Origin: a virus
Length of the DNA: 22,921 nucleotides
Strand: one strand, 5' to 3'
Virus record (IMG/VR): IMGVR_UViG_3300033571_011400
Coordinates: 1 to 22,921 of that record
Part shown: piece after piece, positions 365 through 22,921 of the stretch
Layout: every line of letters starts with the position of its first letter
Numbering within the stretch: the stretch's first letter is position 1
Position numbers and translations under genes: made by a program
Notes under the pieces: generated by a model
What the model was told of the DNA's origin: nothing
What the model saw: the letters and a program-made list of their open reading frames with translations, nothing else
The model's database searches: none

Positions 365-3300
365 TCAATGGAGAAGCTTAGATTCCAAGGCTTCTAGTCT
401 GGCCAAGAGAATCTCGTTCGCTTTCGATAATTCATTCACTTTGTTGTTAAGATAAGTAATTCTGTCTTCGTGATTCTTCCCGACCTCGGCTAGAATAGCC
501 GTGGTTCTGCCATAATCAACGGACAACATATTGGGAATATCACCCATCACGTTGTCGCCAGCTTCCAACACTAGTTCAGGTATATTCTTTCTTACCCATT
601 GGGCAATAAACCCGATTTGCTTCTTGTCATCGCCCTTTAGATTATAATAGACGCCTTTAAGGCCCATTAAGAGATCTATGGGATTAGATATATCAGCGAT
701 GTTCTCCTTGATCCTAATGTCAGAGTTGATAGTCAGAGTACCACCGATTACGCAATTATTATTGGTCAAATCCCAATAAGCAGGCCATTGGGAGTTTACC
801 TGCGTCCAAGTAGCAGTGTCGTTCGTCGTACTGCCGAGTAAATACAGCGTATTACTGTTGACGTGCACGAACCCGCATCTGCCGTCAGTGTCTCTTAAAT
901 GTACTGTGGGATTCGCTCCCCTAAGAAATAAACCATTAGCGATCAGCGCGTTATTGGTGTCCGATCCAATTCTGAACCCAGCGGCTAACAAGTCTCCGGA
1001 AGCGTTTCTAGCCGCAATGGTGCTAACACCGGCAAGGGTGGAAGAATTTAGACCGTCGAGAAGATCGGCATCGAGGCCAGAACCGACACCATCATTGCCC
1101 GCGTGCCAGACAGTGTTGCTACTAACGAGAGGGGTACTAAAGAAAGAGACTACGCCGGTTGAACGCGTGATTAATAGAGAAGTACTGAGAAAAGAGCCCG
1201 CGTCTGAGAAGCGAGAAATAGAGAAGTCGCTGCCAACGTTGCTGCCGGTTTCGGAAGTGCTGTCTCCTAGGTAAGCGGCCCATCGGAGCGAAGGACCGAC
1301 ATAACCGAGTAACTGAGCGCCAGAACCCGAAGTGGGTTTAGTGAGGACGACGGCAGCCCATGAGCCCGATATCTGAAGACTACCAGTCATAGTGTCGCCA
1401 GCCTTGGCAACACGTGTATCGCGCTGAGCGTCTACGTAAGCCTTGCGGGTAAGTTGACCGGCAGTAGTGGGATCGGAGGCAGGACCTGTCGGAATAGCTT
1501 GAAATTCTGTGACCCCGGTGTTGCGTCTAATAATTATTGGAGAACCTACGTAAGACCCCACATCGCTATAACGGTTGATAGCAAAATCACTGCCAGCGTT
1601 GCCGCCAGATTCAGCATCGTTACTTCCCGCTACGATAATCCATCTGTCTACATTGTTAGTCTTAGAAATGATTACAGCATTTGCCCCGGAAGCGCTCTTA
1701 TTTAAAGTTAGCGTCGGAGTAGCCTGGGAAATAACCAAGGCACCGGTCAGCGTTCCGCCAGCTGAGGGTAACGCCCCGATTTCAGCCAAAGTCCATGCTA
1801 CATCCGCAGAACCGTTAAATGATTTACCAGTGGAACCAATGGTGAGGGTTCTAGATGTAGCTAGAGTAGTGGCCGTGTTAGCACTAGACGCCGTGATCCC
1901 CCACGAACCGGTAGCTCCGGTGCCGGTAGTGGGAACCATAGTGCCAGCCACCAGTGTAGTATTACCATCTGCGAGGGTTAGTGTGCGGTTCGCAGTGACC
2001 GGGGCCGACATTGCCGAATAAAAAGTGCTTGCAGAATTGAATAACCTAAAAGTATTGGTCCCAGTGATATCAACAGCTAGTTTAGGCTCGCCTCCGTTAG
2101 CGGAGGTCCAAATTTCTAACTCACCTCCCGCCGCCGATCCTGCGGCGGTGGCTACTAAACGAACCTTGTCACCACGCCCGCCAGCAGTAGAATCACTAGT
2201 TCCAAATAAGATAGATCCTATTTCATTACCAGCTACGACGTTGAGATTATGCCCGAGCCTGATTCTAGGAGAAGTACCAAGAATATTGATGGTGGCTTGA
2301 CGCACTGTTGAAACGGGAATCGAAAATCCGGTTCCTCCTCCCGCAAGCGTGGCTGATAAAACATCGCCTGGAATAAATCTATTTCCCTCAGCGACTAGTG
2401 TGACTGAACTAACGTTACCAAATCCATCGACTACGATGGTAGCTGTAGCGCCCAATCCAGACCCGCCAGTCAAGGATACTGCTGTGTAAGTCCCTGGTAC
2501 ATAAGCGCTGCCGGGCGTTATGGCTCCGAACGTGACAATGGGACCGCGATTGACGGTATCTCCGATGCCAATACCGGTGATGGATTCGTAGATGCCAGCT
2601 ACTCTCGCGCTAGGAATTGTCCCAGCAGTAAGATTGGTGGCGTCTTGATACCAGGAACCTTGTTGTCCGTCTAGCAGATCGGCGTCAAGACCGGATGTCG
2701 CGCCATCATTACCGGCGTGCCAAATATTGTTACTGTTAAAGGTGAGAGTGGTGTTAAACATCACCAATCTCTCAGTGGCATTTTCTCCAAGTGACAGTCT
2801 GTTGATATTATTAGTGCCACCAAACCTTATGAACGCCCCATTGGTTACATCAACTCTCCTTCTTATTTCCCAGGCGGCGGTGGTCCAATCAGTTCCGTTT
2901 GTTACTCTGAAAGCTCTGGTGATAAGATTGTCGGAGTTAGAATTGAGTATTCTAGACGAATTGAATATGTTCTCGTTATCAACTGTGGTTCCTAGAGCAG
3001 TGGTGGCAGTATAGGAGAACCCAGTAGCGCCCACACTGATCGTAGTGGGATTAGAGGCCGAGGTTACGATACCCTTAGTGTTTACTGCAACGGACGTATA
3101 AGTACCAGCGGATAGACCCGCTTGGGTAGCCAACGCCACCGTGAGAGATACGTCGCCGCTGCCATTAAATCCTACAGTATTAGACGTGGCATCGCCGCTT
3201 AGAGAAAAATTACGTGAATTCGTTAAAGTAGCGACACTTCCTGCGTAAGAGACACCAGCGGGAATGGTACCAGATGTGATCTTAGCTCCGCTGAGAGACG

Positions 3301-4909
3301 GGATATCTGCTTCTAATAAAGTGGACCCTCCTGTAATTCTTCCCTTAGTATTAACAGTCAGCTTAGTGTAAGTACCTAAGGCTAGACCGGATATGCTTGC
3401 CAGTTTAACATCATCAATAGAATGATCTACTAATAAATCGCCAACGACCATTTTTTCAAGTGTGAGATCAGCGTACCAAGCCTCACCCACGTAAGTGGGA
3501 CGATCTGCCCACGGGCCAAATCTAAGTCTAGCAGCGTTAGCTGGGATGGTGTAAAGACCTGTTACACGCACCCATCCAGTGGAAGTAGTGAATGCGGAAG
3601 GCCAAATAAAACTTGATATAAACCCCTCAGCAGCATTTAAGACCGCCCCAAAGATGCCGATACCGACGCCGCCATTGCCCGTTCCCCGATTAACCCAGGC
3701 AGAAGCTCTGTAAACCTCCCCTGGAACTACGTCAAAATCTGCGAGATGGGGACAATCTCTTACATTAAACTCAGCCGCAACAGTAGTGGGGCACCCAGTA
3801 GGAACTGCGACATTGCTGGAGCTTAATCGCCTGACAAACCCGGTCCAGCCTGCCGATCCCGAAGAAAATGAAGGGTCTTGATTGATGCTCTTTGATGCTA
3901 CTAATAAATGCTGAGATCTAACTGCGGCATTAGCAATTTTGGTAGCAGTTACGACACTTGCACCAATGGTAGCTAAAATAGATACATCAGCACCACCGTT
4001 AAATCCTACCGTATTCGATGTAAGCTCGCCAGCTAATGAGAAATTTCGACTGGTAGCTAAAATAGTGGCAGAAGTAGCGCTAGTAGCGCTAGTGGCGCTG
4101 GTCGCAGTCGATGCGTTCCCAATCAACGCGGCAGTGATCGTGCCTGCCGAGAAATTTCCGTTAGCGTCTCTCGCCACAATTGCAGAAGCGGTATTTGCGT
4201 TAGTGGCGTTAGAGGCAATCGTAGGATTGCCAGAGACGCCATCCGCATTTGTTACCGAGATACCAGTTCCGGAAACAGCAATCGAACGCGCCGTTACAGA
4301 ACCAGATGCGACTCGCGCCACCATTCCGTTAGTAGCTAAATTACCAAAAGACGCCGTTTGCAGATTGGCGACCAACTGCCAGACTACGTTATTGGTGCCT
4401 AAAGTGCCACTAAAATCTGTCTGAGAAAACCAAAGTGTGTCTGTGTTAACAGACCCTTGAACTACTGCTACTTCGGCAGCAACCAAGTTGTCCCAGGTGT
4501 TGCTATCGTCTGCTCTGGTGAGAACCCAAGGCACCGATACGGAACCAACGGTCGTTACGGTATAAATACCGTTCTGCCTAGCGAGCGTCTGATCTTTAAC
4601 TAATACTCTATCATTAACTGACAGCGATACGCCGTCGATGGCTAGAGTCGCTAGCGCGCCTGAATTGGTAAGAGTTTGAGTGGCCCCAGTCACTGAGAGA
4701 TTTGCAGTAGTAGCCACCCTAACCGGGCGCTTTAACGGCATGGAGCTTATTGGATCAAATGCAACAATTGAGGAGACGGTTCCCACCGTCCTCCTCATAA
4801 ACATCCTGCCATCGTTGGTATTTAGGGCCAATTCCCCTAGATCAAGAACGCCTGTAGTAGGTATAGCGCCTTGGACAGCGCTGCGCTTGATCTGCAACTT
4901 ATTGGGCAT
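365..4909 (-). CDS. Large tail fibre with C-terminal S74 autocleavage chaperone
   Basis: The protein has 1514 residues. It starts with the fibre attachment motif MPNKLQIKRSAV and GELALNTNDGRMF (residues 1-40). Residues 63-182 hold a module with DRVLVKDQT and QNGIYTV that is also present in the neighbouring fibre. Residues about 343-488 look like a carbohydrate-binding jelly roll. Repeats of the type SRNFSL..TSNTVGFNG and WHAGNDG.GSGLDADLLDG follow. The last 119 residues are a peptidase S74 intramolecular chaperone: SDIRIK from residue 1396 supplies the Ser and Lys of the self-cleavage site, IGFIAQ follows, and a coiled coil ends the chain. In this family the chaperone trimerises and folds the fibre, then cuts itself off, which would leave about 1395 residues. 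AAGGGGGG precedes the ATG. It is the best receptor-binding candidate in the window. Confidence 0.9.
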   Translation of the reverse strand: MPNKLQIKRSAVQGAIPTTGVLDLGELALNTNDGRMFMRRTVGTVSSIVAFDPISSMPLKRPVRVATTANLSVTGATQTLTNSGALATLAIDGVSLSVNDRVLVKDQTLARQNGIYTVTTVGSVSVPWVLTRADDSNTWDNLVAAEVAVVQGSVNTDTLWFSQTDFSGTLGTNNVVWQLVANLQTASFGNLATNGMVARVASGSVTARSIAVSGTGISVTNADGVSGNPTIASNATNANTASAIVARDANGNFSAGTITAALIGNASTATSATSATSATSATILATSRNFSLAGELTSNTVGFNGGADVSILATIGASVVTATKIANAAVRSQHLLVASKSINQDPSFSSGSAGWTGFVRRLSSSNVAVPTGCPTTVAAEFNVRDCPHLADFDVVPGEVYRASAWVNRGTGNGGVGIGIFGAVLNAAEGFISSFIWPSAFTTSTGWVRVTGLYTIPANAARLRFGPWADRPTYVGEAWYADLTLEKMVVGDLLVDHSIDDVKLASISGLALGTYTKLTVNTKGRITGGSTLLEADIPSLSGAKITSGTIPAGVSYAGSVATLTNSRNFSLSGDATSNTVGFNGSGDVSLTVALATQAGLSAGTYTSVAVNTKGIVTSASNPTTISVGATGFSYTATTALGTTVDNENIFNSSRILNSNSDNLITRAFRVTNGTDWTTAAWEIRRRVDVTNGAFIRFGGTNNINRLSLGENATERLVMFNTTLTFNSNNIWHAGNDGATSGLDADLLDGQQGSWYQDATNLTAGTIPSARVAGIYESITGIGIGDTVNRGPIVTFGAITPGSAYVPGTYTAVSLTGGSGLGATATIVVDGFGNVSSVTLVAEGNRFIPGDVLSATLAGGGTGFSIPVSTVRQATINILGTSPRIRLGHNLNVVAGNEIGSILFGTSDSTAGGRGDKVRLVATAAGSAAGGELEIWTSANGGEPKLAVDITGTNTFRLFNSASTFYSAMSAPVTANRTLTLADGNTTLVAGTMVPTTGTGATGSWGITASSANTATTLATSRTLTIGSTGKSFNGSADVAWTLAEIGALPSAGGTLTGALVISQATPTLTLNKSASGANAVIISKTNNVDRWIIVAGSNDAESGGNAGSDFAINRYSDVGSYVGSPIIIRRNTGVTEFQAIPTGPASDPTTAGQLTRKAYVDAQRDTRVAKAGDTMTGSLQISGSWAAVVLTKPTSGSGAQLLGYVGPSLRWAAYLGDSTSETGSNVGSDFSISRFSDAGSFLSTSLLITRSTGVVSFFSTPLVSSNTVWHAGNDGVGSGLDADLLDGLNSSTLAGVSTIAARNASGDLLAAGFRIGSDTNNALIANGLFLRGANPTVHLRDTDGRCGFVHVNSNTLYLLGSTTNDTATWTQVNSQWPAYWDLTNNNCVIGGTLTINSDIRIKENIADISNPIDLLMGLKGVYYNLKGDDKKQIGFIAQWVRKNIPELVLEAGDNVMGDIPNMLSVDYGRTTAILAEVGKNHEDRITYLNNKVNELSKANEILLARLEALESKLLH

Positions 4910-12768: not shown

Positions 12769-13185
12769 TTACGACATCGCCGCGTTGTTCGGGCGAACGA
12801 TGCGAGACGAGAGAGTGACCGAGGGGGTCGAGCCACCGGTAATCGTCATCGCATCACGGATGAACGCCGCAGAGGGTTCCAGCGACTTCACCGTGGTCAG
12901 ATCGATCGGCAGAATCCACTCGCCAACACCGGTGATGGCAAGCTGAGCCACCGTCACCGGGGAGCTGAAGTTGGAAGCCGAGTCCACCTGAACCGAGTAG
13001 TTCATCGTGGAACCACCAGCCGTGAACGCCGAGACACGAACCGCAACGGCGATCGTTTCATAGTGCGCGTCGTTGGCGTAATACACCGGGGTCAGCGGAT
13101 GCGCCTTGGCGTCGGACGAGTCCGTAGCCGTCAGCGTCTCAGAAGCGCGGAGAACTAGCTCCACATCGAAGATTGCCTTCACCAT
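12769..13185 (-). CDS. Putative capsid decoration (cement) protein
   Basis: This encodes 138 residues directly downstream of the major capsid gene, with AAGGAG before the ATG. The chain is beta-rich. The segment MNYSVQVDSASNFSSPVTVA resembles the core of Bordetella phage BPP-1 Bbp16-like cement proteins, and the C-terminus has SSRIVRP. Codons are mostly C- or G-ending as in the capsid gene, fitting high copy number. Two hairpins follow the stop. Position and composition support decoration of the capsid lattice; the family link is by recall, not by search. Confidence 0.65.
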   Translation of the reverse strand: MVKAIFDVELVLRASETLTATDSSDAKAHPLTPVYYANDAHYETIAVAVRVSAFTAGGSTMNYSVQVDSASNFSSPVTVAQLAITGVGEWILPIDLTTVKSLEPSAAFIRDAMTITGGSTPSVTLSSRIVRPNNAAMS

Positions 13186-13203
13186 TTCACCGTTCTCCTT
13201 CTA

Positions 13204-14127
13204 TTAAGCGGTCACGGCGGAATCGGTGACACCACGCAGACGGGCCAGGGCCTTGCCGTGCATGATAGCAATACCAGCGAACCACTCAACGCGAGTGCGC
13301 ATCGCAGGCTTGCTCTGCAGTTCACCGAGATCGCGGGCGGTGATGTCGCCGTTCTGGATGCCCTGGAACATGCCTTCACCGAAGGACACGCAGAAGATGG
13401 AAGTGGAAGCAGTACCACCACCAGCTGCAGCCTCGTTGAACGGCATGATCTGGTTGCCAGCCTCGTCTTCGTCCACGACCAGAACCGGAAGGTCGTTGTA
13501 CATAGTCAGCTGACGACCGTATTCGTCCTTCGTATGGGTGATGTACCCGCTGACGGATGTATTACGAGACGACTGCGTTAGACGACGGCGCATACCCTTA
13601 TTCATCAGAAGATGAGTCGGGTTCGTCACCTGATCGATAACTTCGTCCAGCTTGGCCAGAGACAGACCAGCGCCAGTGCCGGCGTTGTTCTCAATCAGCT
13701 GGTTGCCAGCGACTCGGCCCTGGATACCATCGAACTCGCGCGGATCGTTGCCGTTGTCGCCCTTGACGAACGCCTTGGTCCAACGGAGGGCGAGGGCGCG
13801 AATCTTCATCGCTTCCTGCACGGAACGCTGGTCAGCGCCCATCGTCTGGAGGATGAAGGTATCGACGTCCAGATCGCCACCAGCGATGGACAGCATTTCA
13901 ACCTGCGGGTTGAGGATGCCGGTCGATTCGCCGTAAGCTTCGTTCACACCACGGAAGCCGACGCCGGGCAGCTTGTCTTCGCGGTTATAGCGAAGGGCGT
14001 TGCCGGTGATGTTATCAAATGGCAGAGCCATCAGAACATCGGAGTTACGGGCGTAAAGCTCGATAACGGCGGAACGCAGTACGTCCCCGCTATGAAGCTT
14101 CGAAGCCTCAACTAGAGTTAGAGCCAT
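13204..14127 (-). CDS. Major capsid protein, HK97 fold
   Basis: The protein has 307 residues from the ATG at 14127, which has GGAGG about seven bases upstream; an upstream in-frame ATG at 14169 falls inside the structured leader. The sequence opens MALTLVEASKL, then has LPFDNITGNALRYNRE, LPGVGFRGVNEAYGEST and the GGDLDVDTF region, a pattern familiar from phage major capsid proteins of this length. Later segments include NDPREFDGIQGR and THLLMNKGMRRRL. There is no obvious N-terminal delta domain, which fits the separate scaffold-like gene upstream. A sigma70-like promoter lies in the 145-base gap upstream. Codons are strongly biased towards C- and G-ending forms. Confidence 0.88.
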   Translation of the reverse strand: MALTLVEASKLHSGDVLRSAVIELYARNSDVLMALPFDNITGNALRYNREDKLPGVGFRGVNEAYGESTGILNPQVEMLSIAGGDLDVDTFILQTMGADQRSVQEAMKIRALALRWTKAFVKGDNGNDPREFDGIQGRVAGNQLIENNAGTGAGLSLAKLDEVIDQVTNPTHLLMNKGMRRRLTQSSRNTSVSGYITHTKDEYGRQLTMYNDLPVLVVDEDEAGNQIMPFNEAAAGGGTASTSIFCVSFGEGMFQGIQNGDITARDLGELQSKPAMRTRVEWFAGIAIMHGKALARLRGVTDSAVTA

Positions 14128-19168: not shown

Positions 19169-20575
19169 CTAATCTTTCTGCTTGGCCTTTCTTATGCCGT
19201 CAATGATGGCGGCGCTAACCTCTTGCTTGCGCTGCAAAGCAGTCACGATCTGATTGTCGATAGGATTCAGTACGAAATCGATGTACTGACAGGTATTCTT
19301 CTGCCCAATCCTGTGAATTCTGTCCTCGGTCTGCGACCGCGTGTCCAACGAGAATGTATTTTCGTAGAACGCGGCCACGTGGCACCATCCGGCTTTCTCT
19401 GAGCCAATCAGCGTGTGACCGTATTTAGCGCTGTCCATTTGGACTATGCATACTCTATGTTCTTTATAATTATTAAATTTATCCTTCTGCTCTTCAATTG
19501 TCTCCGACGTCATTCCGCCTCTGATAAAGGTCGGATTATAGTCTTTGAGCCGCTCTAGCAGCATGTCAATCGACCGCTTGAACGTGCAGGGGATTAATAC
19601 CTTGCTAGTCGTCTGTTCCAACAGGTCCTCAATCTCTTTCATCTTAGGTGAACCGCCGTCCAATTCTATGACTGCCCCAGAATCAGAGATCACAAATCCA
19701 GAAGCGATCTGCTGTAGCTTGATCAGTTTGGTGATGACAAGCTGGACCGAGATCTCTTCATCCCTCTCGGAAATGTAAGTATAGAGATCCTGCTCAATTT
19801 CCTGGTAAAGCTGCCTCTGCAGCTTGGTCATCTCAAGCTGACGAGTTGTATACATCTTTTCTGGAAGATCGAGCCACTGATCCTTCTTGGCTCGGAACCC
19901 ACAGTTATTAACGATACCGTTTAGACGCTCTTCATTTTGCACTCCGATCACTTGCTTCCCCATGAAGCCACCCAGGGAGCAAAACGTGTACCGAAATGGA
20001 TGATAAGCCATCTTTGGAATGGCGTCCAAGAAAGTAAGCTGAGCCCACATGTCATGCGGGCCTTGCGGTGCCGGATTACCCGACAGGATGAGACGCTTCT
20101 TGGCAAGCTTGCGCAGACGCAGCGCCGCCTTGGTCCGCAGTGACTTCGGATTCTTGATCTGGACGCTCTCGTCTAACACCAACATGGTCGGATAAGCCGC
20201 CATGACCTTCTCTAGATACTCTTCGCCTTTGCCCACTCCAATCGCCTCGTAATTGATCGAAATCAGGAAAGGGGCCTTAACCTTGCGAGGGTCCTTCGGG
20301 ACATCTGGCCACATATATTTAGTGACATTGACGCCCCACTTATCCGCTTCTATTAACCAGTTGGGCTTGAGCGAATTCGGACACACAACCACTAGTCCGA
20401 CCACTTTATTCTTAATCACGAAATCTACAAATACATTAAGGGACGTGCCAGTCTTCCCTAATCCCATTTCGAGCCATAAACCATAGGCATCGTGTTCTAC
20501 AGCCCGCCGTGTGGCTTCCGCCTGGACATCGAATGGCTTGCCCTTTAGGTGCCAAATCGGCAGAATTTCGTTCAT
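19169..20575 (-). CDS. SNF2-type DEAD/DEAH helicase
   Basis: The protein has 468 residues. Motif I is EMGLGKTGTS (36-45, Lys41), motif Ia is VVVCPNSLKPNW (about 62-73), motif II is LVLDES near 132-137 (a DEAH variant) followed by IKNPKS, and motif III is LSGNPAPQGP. The C-terminal RecA domain ends in the SNF2 signature QTEDRIHRIGQK. It is a compact SNF2 core without accessory domains, as found in many phages, and would use ATP to move along or remodel DNA. The ATG overlaps the datZ stop (ATGA), linking it to the diaminopurine genes. Whether it acts in replication, recombination or protection is not shown by sequence. Confidence 0.9.
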   Translation of the reverse strand: MNEILPIWHLKGKPFDVQAEATRRAVEHDAYGLWLEMGLGKTGTSLNVFVDFVIKNKVVGLVVVCPNSLKPNWLIEADKWGVNVTKYMWPDVPKDPRKVKAPFLISINYEAIGVGKGEEYLEKVMAAYPTMLVLDESVQIKNPKSLRTKAALRLRKLAKKRLILSGNPAPQGPHDMWAQLTFLDAIPKMAYHPFRYTFCSLGGFMGKQVIGVQNEERLNGIVNNCGFRAKKDQWLDLPEKMYTTRQLEMTKLQRQLYQEIEQDLYTYISERDEEISVQLVITKLIKLQQIASGFVISDSGAVIELDGGSPKMKEIEDLLEQTTSKVLIPCTFKRSIDMLLERLKDYNPTFIRGGMTSETIEEQKDKFNNYKEHRVCIVQMDSAKYGHTLIGSEKAGWCHVAAFYENTFSLDTRSQTEDRIHRIGQKNTCQYIDFVLNPIDNQIVTALQRKQEVSAAIIDGIRKAKQKD

Positions 20576-21177
20576 ATGGCAATGACCCCTTTTAGCATCC
20601 CGCCCGCCGCTTCTAATTCGGGATCAAGAACTCCGTCCTGCCCCTCCCATTCGTCGCGGATCGCTTTATTGATGAGGAACATAAGATTTTGCCGCCCACG
20701 CAGCGGATAGTTATTGAGGCTCTTAACCAACAGCGCGTAATTGGAGAGTAATACGGATATTACTCCCTGATTTCCAAGTCGTCGCTCCGACACCAGGAAT
20801 AATACTGCCTCAAGGATATCGGCGGTTTTTAGCATATGACCGATCATTGGATCATCGTCGTTATTCGGATTGCCTCCGAACCGACGATCATACACTTGAT
20901 CCTCGTATTCGCTTAGCTTAGCATCATCCACCGCCGCTCGCTTGAAGGGGCCGGGCATGTCGCCCGACTCCACTTCTGGCCAATCATGGCTAAGGCAGGC
21001 TCGCATGAGCGCTGCCCTATCACCATCCCATCCAAGAACACCGGCAATTTGATCGGCGTAAATAGCGACCAGTCCCGAATGTTCCATGACCGACTGTTGT
21101 TGAATCAGTCGGACAATGGACCACCTTGGAACGTGAGTAAGAGTTCGGAGACTCCTACTAAACGGCTTATGCGACAT
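20572..21177 (-). CDS. datZ: HD-domain dATP triphosphohydrolase DatZ
   Basis: The protein has 201 residues from the ATG at 21177; a GTG nine bases further up is also possible, and neither has a strong ribosome site. It is a YfbR-type HD hydrolase: PRW (17-19), VMEHS (30-34, metal ligand His33), LSHDWPEVESGDMPGPFK (62-79, His64-Asp65 and Glu68), and a later KTAD supplying the last Asp. In Z-genome phages this family removes dATP by releasing triphosphate, so adenine cannot enter the new DNA. YfbR itself is a 5'-deoxynucleotidase, so the dATP specificity rests on the neighbouring purZ and mazZ. The gene overlaps mazZ at its start and the helicase at its end. Confidence 0.87.
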   Translation of the reverse strand: MSHKPFSRSLRTLTHVPRWSIVRLIQQQSVMEHSGLVAIYADQIAGVLGWDGDRAALMRACLSHDWPEVESGDMPGPFKRAAVDDAKLSEYEDQVYDRRFGGNPNNDDDPMIGHMLKTADILEAVLFLVSERRLGNQGVISVLLSNYALLVKSLNNYPLRGRQNLMFLINKAIRDEWEGQDGVLDPELEAAGGMLKGVIAI

Positions 21178-21727
21178 CGACGGCACCGTTCACAGCGTTC
21201 TTCTTCCACTGGCGCTTCGACACTTCCGCCCAAGTGCCGTTCACGATGCCCGCGTAATCGCTGCCCATCATATCGGACAGGGCATACATCGCCTGAGTTA
21301 CCTTGTGGAGGTAGAATTGCTTGTTCTTGGCGTGATCTTCCGATACCCTGATCTTCTGCTCAGACTTGAGGTGAGCATGGTTGATCCTGCCGAGATACTT
21401 CATGGCCTCAACCACGATGTCCTTCGGACCATTCAGAACGGCGTTCATCGCCACTTGGGACCCCAAGTATTCGAGATCATCGAGAGCCAACATGTCGAGC
21501 TTCTCGCGGGCTGCGTAGTCCATCGAGAAGACGGTGATGTCCCCGATGGCGTCTTCGATCTTGGCCCGATCATTGTGAGCCAGCGCCTCAAGTAACTCGC
21601 CAAATTCCTCGACCAGTCCTAGTAACGGTCGGTAAGACGGCTGCTCGCCAAAATTGCCATGGGACCACTCGTACACTTCCGGGACGAGTCGGGAAAATAC
21701 TACCTGTTCCATAATCCGCTCCATCAT
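21167..21727 (-). CDS. mazZ: MazG-like nucleotide pyrophosphohydrolase MazZ
   Basis: The protein has 186 residues. The ATG at 21727 overlaps the purZ stop by four bases, with TAAGG seven bases upstream; an internal ATG at 21712 with GGAG is an alternative. The all-alpha NTP pyrophosphatase metal site is seen as GLVEEFGELLEAL (37-49, Glu40, Glu41, Glu44) and IEDAIGDITVF (57-67, with Asp59 and Asp63). A helical C-terminal half follows. In the diaminopurine pathway MazZ turns (d)GTP into (d)GMP plus pyrophosphate, providing the dGMP that PurZ uses. Generic MazG-like proteins are common in phages, so the specific call depends on the purZ-datZ context. Confidence 0.87.
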   Translation of the reverse strand: MMERIMEQVVFSRLVPEVYEWSHGNFGEQPSYRPLLGLVEEFGELLEALAHNDRAKIEDAIGDITVFSMDYAAREKLDMLALDDLEYLGSQVAMNAVLNGPKDIVVEAMKYLGRINHAHLKSEQKIRVSEDHAKNKQFYLHKVTQAMYALSDMMGSDYAGIVNGTWAEVSKRQWKKNAVNGAVDVA

Positions 21728-22821
21728 TCCGCCGCCTTACGCTTAGTACGCAGCCACTCCGTGGCTTGCTCAAGAGTCTCGACAACATCGAGTGTCGAAG
21801 GACCCAAGCCGAATACCTTCTGGGGGATTACCCCAGTCTCGTTCTCTTGCGCGCCCATCTTGCTCAACATCGTGAACAGATCGTCGGGGCTATTCAGGTA
21901 ATTGACGAAATTCAAGAAGACATGCGTGGGCCGGATGCAATCGAGGCTGTCCCGGTATTGCTTGCAGGAGAAGGTGAAAATCCGCCGCACCCGCTTGGTC
22001 ACCGTGGTAACTTCGGCCTTCTGACCGAGTTCCTCCCATGACACTTCGCGCTGGTCATCGTAGCAATCGCCGCTGTATCCCAGCTGAACGCCATCCTGCA
22101 CGATATTTCCGACCCGGATCGGGTAGGTCCGATTGGTCATGACAATATTGCCGACGAACCGGGGACTGATCCCAGCATCGCTCAGTCCTTGACCAGGGGA
22201 GACGATACGCGACGTGGTGTTGGGGTACCACGGCTGGTCGTTGCCGAGTGAAAACCCTTGCGGGACTTCAACCATCACCCGCTTGCCGTGCTGAAGTTCG
22301 CGGTTCAGATTGAGAATCTGAGTGAACTGGCGAATCATAGGATGGTTCTTGGCCACCATCCCTTCGCGCATGACCTTACGTGCCAGCGCCCTACCAACCC
22401 CCTTCTGAGTCGAGGCGATCTTGGTCGCACCGGACGTCTTGGACTTCTCGTAGTCCTTATCTTCCTGGGTAATCACCGCCGCATTGGGGTGAATCACCAA
22501 GCGACCCGGTTCGATCTTGAACTCCTCGATCTCATTCATCAAGATCTCAGGATCGATGATTGCACCTGCATTCAGGTAAATCACCGCATCGCGATTGATG
22601 ATCCCGGCAGTCGGCATGTGGAAGGTGACGAAGGTAGTACCATCCGACAGGATAGTGGTGTGACCAGCATTGGCCGAAGCATTGGTGACCGCGAAGTCCA
22701 CCGGGCTTTGCTGCGCAACATAGGCAGCGATCAGCCCCTTGCCGGTGCTACCGTATTGACCGTCAATCAACACGGAAGCCTTGCCCGGCTGATTGAAGTC
22801 CTGGAAGATACTAAACTGCAT
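21724..22821 (-). CDS. purZ: PurZ, aminoadenine-specific adenylosuccinate synthetase homologue
   Basis: The protein has 365 residues, shorter than typical cellular PurA. The P-loop reads DGQYGSTGKG (20-29), where PurA has G-D-E-G-K-G; the catalytic Asp is Ser25, the change known for PurZ. NAGHT (51-55) keeps the catalytic His, HMPTAGI matches PurA 'HL.PSGI', and VMVEVPQGFSLGND, TTSRIVSPGQG and YPIRVGN match later PurA blocks. PurZ joins aspartate to dGMP to form N6-succino-2-amino-dAMP; host PurB then yields dZMP, and host kinases dZTP. AGGAG lies before the ATG. The gene overlaps an AP2-domain gene upstream and mazZ downstream. A normal phage PurA is the alternative, but the missing Asp argues against it. 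Confidence 0.93.
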   Translation of the reverse strand: MQFSIFQDFNQPGKASVLIDGQYGSTGKGLIAAYVAQQSPVDFAVTNASANAGHTTILSDGTTFVTFHMPTAGIINRDAVIYLNAGAIIDPEILMNEIEEFKIEPGRLVIHPNAAVITQEDKDYEKSKTSGATKIASTQKGVGRALARKVMREGMVAKNHPMIRQFTQILNLNRELQHGKRVMVEVPQGFSLGNDQPWYPNTTSRIVSPGQGLSDAGISPRFVGNIVMTNRTYPIRVGNIVQDGVQLGYSGDCYDDQREVSWEELGQKAEVTTVTKRVRRIFTFSCKQYRDSLDCIRPTHVFLNFVNYLNSPDDLFTMLSKMGAQENETGVIPQKVFGLGPSTLDVVETLEQATEWLRTKRKAAE

Positions 22822-22921
22822 TAATTCTCTCCTGCATCAAATTGAGCGCGGCCAATGGGCCAAAATGAAGCATCGCCGCCCGGTCATACGCCGCTGCCGC
22901 TTCTGCTTCGTCCACGAACGA
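22811..22921 (-). CDS. 3' end of an AP2-domain (probable HNH homing) endonuclease
   Basis: The last 36 codons and stop are visible; the 5' part lies beyond the window. The fragment FVDEAEAAAAYDRAAMLHFG followed by PLAALNL matches the C-terminal half of an AP2 DNA-binding domain ('f.d.eeAA.AYD.AA...G..A.lNf'). In phages this domain is most often fused behind an HNH nuclease in free-standing homing endonucleases. The nuclease part is not visible, so the enzyme call is inference. The gene overlaps purZ by 11 bases in another frame. Confidence 0.7.
   Translation of the reverse strand, partial: SFVDEAEAAAAYDRAAMLHFGPLAALNLMQERINAV

Follow-up and report, generated by a model that had tools for sequence, protein, structure and literature searches.

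A predicted 2-aminoadenine gene cluster with a divergent MazG-like protein in a phage of a little-cultured PurZ clade

Introduction

Replacement of adenine (A) by 2-aminoadenine (Z) is among the most complete DNA base replacements known, and few lineages of the phages concerned have been cultured. In cyanophage S-2L (MW334946), purZ, mazZ and datZ stand in this order ahead of the terminase and portal genes; the S-2L report (PMC8065100) states that all A is replaced by means of a polymerase lacking selectivity for Z, as DatZ removes deoxyadenosine triphosphate (dATP). When the S-2L triad is expressed in E. coli, Z enters the DNA but replacement is only partial (PMC8342488). The DNA polymerase DpoZ of the phiVC8 type is marked by three insertions (PMC8599892). 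In the known Z schemes, 2-amino-2'-deoxyadenosine monophosphate (dZMP) is phosphorylated to the triphosphate (dZTP) by host enzymes (PMC8342488), and functional convergence has been described for the hydrolysis of deoxyguanosine triphosphate (dGTP) (PMC12884076). Here we describe a gene cluster in a 22.9 kb viral record, IMG/VR record IMGVR_UViG_3300033571_011400 (22,921 nucleotides, all of them analyzed and hereafter called the window). Judging from its sequence, it is very probably a Z cluster, by which dZTP would be made, dATP destroyed and Z used for A in the phage DNA.

Gene order and known counterparts

The cluster consists of purZ, a MazG-like gene in the mazZ position (the middle gene) and datZ, which together with a helicase gene form one tightly packed run:

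21724-22821, minus strand: purZ; 365 aa, ATG start; predicted 2-amino-2'-deoxyadenylosuccinate synthetase by models, residues and trees
21167-21727, minus strand: mazZ-position gene; 186 aa, ATG start; divergent MazG-superfamily nucleotide pyrophosphohydrolase, candidate enzyme converting (d)GTP to deoxyguanosine monophosphate (dGMP)
20572-21186, minus strand: datZ; 204 aa, GTG start; predicted HD-domain dATP triphosphohydrolase
19169-20575, minus strand: SNF2-type (SF2) DNA helicase; 468 aa; phrog_62, 6.9e-96

Neighboring genes overlap by 4 nt (purZ and the middle gene), 20 nt (the middle gene and datZ) and 4 nt (datZ and the helicase gene). The three overlapping frames of the triad occupy exactly the positions given in a preliminary description of the locus (20572-22821, minus strand). 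The triad is real and intact, the joint profile matches in one overlapping run being far beyond chance, and all three frames are open, with the same lengths, in a sister contig (G001, 3300020161_002221, 36.8 kb) that is 98% identical to the window and reaches past purZ.

Comparison with described systems revealed both shared and distinguishing features. Ochrobactrum phage vB_OspP_OH (MT028492; hereafter OH) has the same layout, purZ - MazZ-2 - datZ - ATP-dependent helicase, and a PurZ of the same clade that is 46% identical over the BLAST match; unlike the window, it encodes a MazZ-2 type protein where the window has the 186-aa MazG-like one and its own PolA near purZ, and its recorded name makes it a podovirus, while the tail block of the window is siphovirus-like. 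S-2L shares with the window the gene order of the triad, followed by terminase and portal, and its PurZ is 34% identical; it differs in belonging to the other PurZ clade, in a MazZ-1 with intact Glu50, in the lack of a helicase after datZ and in its PrimPol polymerase. Vibrio phage phiVC8 and Acinetobacter phage SH-Ab 15497 have the same PurZ and DatZ families and differ in a DpoZ with three insertions, in MazZ-2 or DUF5664-DUF550, in the other PurZ clade and in having no helicase after datZ. The PurZ0 systems (Arthrobacter phage Wayne, Gordonia phages) likewise contain a Ser-type PurA-like synthetase, but one of the PurZ0 clade, along with DutZ/DmtZ and no DatZ (PMC12884076; our DatZ search and tree). 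We read the window cluster as a variant of the known Z system and not as a new kind; it has a divergent MazG in the slot and belongs to a little-known clade.

PurZ

The purZ product matched the PurZ model NF038379 (7e-71, 238.8 bits), by far the best model, although with a score below the cutoff of 300 bits, which in NCBIfam is an annotation threshold and not a biochemical feature. Further matches were to phrog_1211 (1e-65) and to the structures of phiVC8 PurZ (6fm1, 6.5e-48) and S-2L PurZ (7odx, 1.2e-41). The residues of S-2L PurZ that contact dGMP, (d)ATP and aspartate (PMC8342488) were mapped onto the window protein, which keeps Ser25, N51, A52, G53, H54, T55, S137, T138, R152, Q188, T203, R236, V237, T272, T275, R279, N304, F305, G340 and P341. 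G130, Y203 and C204 of S-2L correspond to A136, N201 and T202, at positions that also vary in OH and other known members, and Q308 corresponds to N307, asparagine being the commonest residue there among known PurZs.

The preliminary description had relied on a serine in place of the catalytic aspartate and on the NAGHT motif. Both are present, with Ser25 (QYGSTGKG) at the position of Asp13 of E. coli PurA; the serine, however, is weaker evidence than was assumed, because many PurA-like proteins of bacterial chromosomes carry QFGSEGKG. It is therefore not diagnostic alone, and a serine at this position is necessary but not sufficient for a PurZ call. A PurZ/PurA tree had also been named as the check that could refute the assignment, and in two trees the window protein is not in canonical PurA. 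It falls inside the phage PurZ clade both in a FastTree of 113 rows (support 99) and in an IQ-TREE of 47 rows (LG+C20, 1000 bootstraps; 100/96), with canonical PurA (E. coli, a Staphylococcus-derived contig) and PurZ0 outside. The window and OH form a subclade (IQ-TREE 99/97) next to the S-2L/phiVC8/SH-Ab group (89/98), and the window PurZ is thus placed by sequence in a sister clade of the S-2L and phiVC8 enzymes. On these residues, models and trees, the protein is firmly predicted to be a PurZ.

DatZ

The datZ product matched phrog_7076, annotated as dATP triphosphohydrolase (1.1e-15), and PF12917 (2e-14); its score with the YfbR equivalog model was 33.8 bits, far under the cutoff of 122. 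The H..HD..E site and PRW motif noted earlier were found again (PRW 20-22, H36, H67-D68, E71, together with D76 and D123). All metal ligands of S-2L DatZ (H34, H66, D67 and D119) as well as E70 and D75 are kept, as H36, H67, D68, D123, E71 and D76, respectively, and so are all of its phosphate ligands. The residues responsible for the dATP specificity of the S-2L enzyme (R19, W20, I22, P79, K81 and K116; PMC8065100) are likewise all shared, as R21, W22, I24, P80, K82 and K120, and Q31 and G75 of the window protein are also kept. An AlphaFold (AF2) model built from 42 DatZ sequences reached a mean predicted local distance difference test score (pLDDT) of 87. VIA-align ranked S-2L DatZ (6zpa) first (Z 20.7, 2.5 A over 168 residues); in Foldseek the template modeling score was highest for 6zpa, while the E-values slightly favored OxsA and YfbR. 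Sequence and model support the prediction of a DatZ with a dATP-specific pocket.

The middle gene

The middle protein matched the MazG-like family phrog_1992 (1.8e-9), and its score with PF03819 was 21.8 bits, just under the cutoff of 22. It keeps the EExxE site (E40, E41, E44), W21, D63 and D70; E41, E44 and D63 are present among the counterparts of the S-2L MazZ metal ligands E35, E38, E50 and D53, and D70 aligns with D60, which contacts the guanine 2-amino group in S-2L MazZ. A tblastn search of 50,697 phage records gave no match to it even at E 10. Among 398 genomes from a single bacterial phylum, the only matches were weak ones (best E ~0.001) to long MazG-type proteins that have EEEIGD, where the motif is readable; they carry glutamate where the middle protein has alanine, and so do not identify its family. 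The notion that DAIGD is a common MazG motif was not supported by the sequences compared.

The mazZ claim of the preliminary description holds in part: the EExxE MazG site is present, but the second metal motif is altered and neither MazZ-1 nor MazZ-2 matched well. By sequence, the product belongs to the MazG superfamily and its gene occupies the mazZ position; the name MazZ would be inferred. Other members of the window's clade mostly have MazZ-2-like proteins in the slot, and some have an unrelated small gene. In two contigs with the same phage backbone (L039 and the 91 kb L041, 3300032257_000004), purZ directly adjoins datZ, with no gene in between, and neither contig has a match to PF03819. 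Since a MazZ-2-like protein, a MazG, an unrelated gene or nothing occupies it across the clade, the dGTP-hydrolase slot looks exchangeable, in keeping with the convergence cited above (PMC12884076).

A small conserved protein (F..HG.W.E.N..IS.MY.H..TG...Y) is encoded between purZ and datZ in L038, L040, L042 (9062-9268), L047 and L050, and several of these contigs have a MazZ-2-like gene ~4-5 kb upstream of purZ.

Predicted pathway

During infection, the MazG-like enzyme would convert dGTP and GTP to dGMP and GMP. PurZ would join dGMP and aspartate to succino-2-amino-dAMP, which host PurB would convert to dZMP, and dZMP would be phosphorylated to dZTP by host kinases, possibly also by a phage deoxynucleoside monophosphate (dNMP) kinase, whose gene lies a short way upstream of purZ in the sister contig. 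Hydrolysis of dATP by DatZ would leave dZTP as the substrate that the polymerase encounters. The virion DNA is predicted to contain Z in place of A and to withstand host enzymes that recognize A. The SNF2-type helicase perhaps handles DNA with Z:T pairs, which have three hydrogen bonds.

Alternative explanations

Several observations weigh against this pathway or leave parts of it less certain. No match to a PolA-type polymerase (PF00476) was found in the window or in the 36.8 kb sister contig; both are fragments, broken off within a gene at almost the same base. YfbR (Z 19.0) and OxsA (Z 18.9) follow S-2L DatZ in VIA-align as close structural neighbors, and the fold therefore leaves dATP specificity unproven. 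A comparison of dN/dS between the window and its 98% identical sister had too few changes to measure selection, datZ being uninformative. The missing polymerase is itself uninformative, because the contigs are fragments and the 91 kb relative has its PolA ~40 kb from purZ. The cluster might only shift nucleotide pools or give a partial mixture of A and Z, with a polymerase lacking Z selection. The PolAs split into two clades like the PurZs (support 100 on the OH/window side, 99 on the phiVC8 side); aligned representatives of the OH/window side (OH and IMG contigs including G017, which has the window backbone) are without the phiVC8-like insertions 2 and 3 (PMC8599892), a state that fits such a mixture, as does the partial replacement obtained with the S-2L triad alone in E. 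coli (PMC8342488). We nevertheless consider this explanation improbable: by the S-2L report cited above (PMC8065100), that phage replaces all A because DatZ removes dATP, its polymerase being unselective for Z, and the window DatZ keeps all dATP-specificity residues.

It is very unlikely that the PurZ-like protein serves purine salvage as a PurA paralogue of the bacterial Ser type and is no Z enzyme. Ser-type proteins with QFGSEGKG and NSGHT are indeed common on bacterial chromosomes, but nearly all of those sampled lie outside the phage PurZ clade, whereas the window protein lies inside it (100/96), shows GSTGKG and NAGHT of the phage type and has DatZ and MazG neighbors; the two in-clade bacterial proteins (L184, L185) have GSTGKG and no DatZ match. 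The middle protein gives more room for doubt, and there is an appreciable minority chance that it acts on another nucleotide or is inactive and that dGMP comes by another route. Its match to a six-sequence MazZ-1 profile is weak (12-14 bits, hhalign probability 9), with a second weak match in which the C-terminal R-x-W falls after a long insertion, and a 35-sequence MazZ-2 profile including new clade members gave no significant score (hhalign probability 1.4). Glu50 of S-2L MazZ, which ligates two metals (PMC8342488), is replaced by A60 (EDAIGD, with D59 adjoining), and the AF2 model built from two sequences is unusable (pLDDT 45; predicted template modeling score 0.37). The lack of the gene in the two same-backbone contigs suggests, too, that a MazG may be dispensable. 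Against this, the gene sits precisely in the mazZ slot, overlapping purZ on one side and datZ on the other, and its product retains EExxE, D63 and D70. The production of dZTP with destruction of dATP is the reading we favor for the cluster as a whole.

Distribution, helicase and kinase

A profile scan of IMG/VR gave at least 578 confirmed PurZ relatives, of which the best 80 were kept. Similarity to known PurZs was the basis for this selection, which contains near-duplicate contigs and loci of shared ancestry. DatZ lies beside PurZ in most of these 80, and many have a MazZ-type protein. The window's PurZ clade contains one isolated phage (OH) among the annotated records examined, and many metagenome contigs; it is a large, almost uncultured branch of Z-type phages. 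Five IMG/VR contigs of 83-200 kb (L056, L052, L053, L068, L067) have a PurZ of the window's broader clade, around which neither DatZ nor MazZ was found out to 8 kb.

A homologue of the window helicase directly follows datZ (start within 400 bp) at 41 of the 53 loci with DatZ on the OH/window side and at none of 25 on the S-2L/phiVC8/SH-Ab side. Only loci with DatZ were counted, and L074, L077 and L083, which lie outside both PurZ subclades and have no DatZ, are not in the count. Because of the similarity-based sampling, near-duplicates and shared ancestry, this is a feature of the clade and not 53 independent events. The SNF2-type helicase is probably part of the Z module in the window's clade.

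Upstream of purZ, the sister contig (locus L005) encodes an HNH-AP2 protein, preceded by a dNMP kinase homologue; these genes have the same direction and nearly abut. The window includes only the end of the former, which overlaps the purZ start by 11 nt:

22811-22921, minus strand, window: HNH-AP2 homing-endonuclease-like gene, 3' end only; continues past the window
13540-14103, L005: HNH-AP2 gene in G001; HNH_3, 2e-6; AP2 below its cutoff; phrog_99, 1.6e-29
12952-13536, L005: dNMP kinase in G001, upstream of the HNH-AP2 gene; phrog_139, 2e-14

L041 and L039, which share the window's terminase, have the order kinase - ThyX - kinase - purZ - datZ - helicase - terminase, with ThyX identified by profile in L039. 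The phrog_139 kinase was found in 5 of the 44 PurZ contigs examined, one of the five being a weak match; it is sporadic, yet sits in the cluster of the window lineage. A 2026 survey does not mention a kinase. Upstream of the Z cluster, L041 also encodes a TROVE/Ro60-like (RNA-binding) protein (1895-3658).

Taken together, these features may set the Z system of the clade apart as a version of its own, a reading that we put forward tentatively and rate as doubtful in its entirety. Its core would be purZ - (variable dGTP hydrolase) - datZ - SNF2 helicase, with a dZMP-phosphorylating kinase in the window lineage; the helicase would be adapted to Z:T DNA, A would be excluded by destruction of dATP and not by a phiVC8-type DpoZ, and the middle enzyme would have been recruited independently, as a third MazG type. 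The clade keeps PurZ and DatZ, varies the dGTP hydrolase, has the helicase behind datZ and has PolAs without two hallmark DpoZ insertions. This combination makes it testable whether a Z-selective polymerase is needed or destruction of dATP is enough. The helicase and the dNMP kinase are candidate new parts for Z-DNA production in engineered cells.

Phage backbone

Downstream of the cluster lies a siphovirus-like structural block (terminase, portal, epsilon15-type capsid, tail terminator, tail tube, S74 fibre), and the capsid has relatives in Microcystis, Mesorhizobium and Caulobacter phages. PF00709, the family of PurA and PurZ, was found in none of ten contigs with a related terminase, where IMG contigs may be incomplete, nor in Microcystis Mwe-JY26 and Mesorhizobium Cp1R7A-A1, the two phages whose capsids are closest; the 91 kb relative, by contrast, carries a PF00709 protein. 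This pattern is consistent with one branch having acquired the cluster, in a backbone that is otherwise without it. No tRNA genes were found in the window or the sister contig. Positions 1-75 of the window and the right end of the sister contig break at the same place, inside the start of an open reading frame (MTIIVSGTTVF...), which suggests a repeat or an assembly break rather than a genome end. The sister contig was rejected as a complete genome, as it ends nearly where the window ends, inside a gene, and is without PolA.

Related loci in bacteria and other phages

Ser-type PurA paralogues (QFGSEGKG, often NSGHT) are widespread in bacterial chromosomes (e.g., L199 384-4503, L211 5888-10149, L195 6034-10276). 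A form of ~350 aa shares a run of three genes with an RNase_H_2+AAA_18 protein and a weak match of the dCTP-deaminase type; a form of ~540 aa is fused to an AAA_18 kinase domain and adjoins DUF7002 and an M78-like peptidase. These loci are possibly nucleotide-based systems.

A PurZ within the phage clade (GSTGKG, NAGHT) was also found in two alphaproteobacterial-type metagenome-assembled genomes of 1.6-1.8 Mb, UBA6503 (DJLZ01000001.1; L184 7971-9014) and OFTM141 (JAJFIW010000018.1; L185 7986-9023). In both, purZ has a housekeeping position, cmk - purZ - Ham1/RdgB-like - probable rpsA, and its product is the sole PF00709 protein found per genome; an ordinary long PolA is present, and the genomes have no match to DatZ or to ADSL_C (PurB).

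In podovirus ctfPj964 (MW202557; L019 6338-8516), a DatZ-like HD hydrolase is encoded next to an annotated deoxyguanosine kinase and pyrimidine hydroxymethylase, with no PurZ annotated nearby; this locus may be another base-replacement system.

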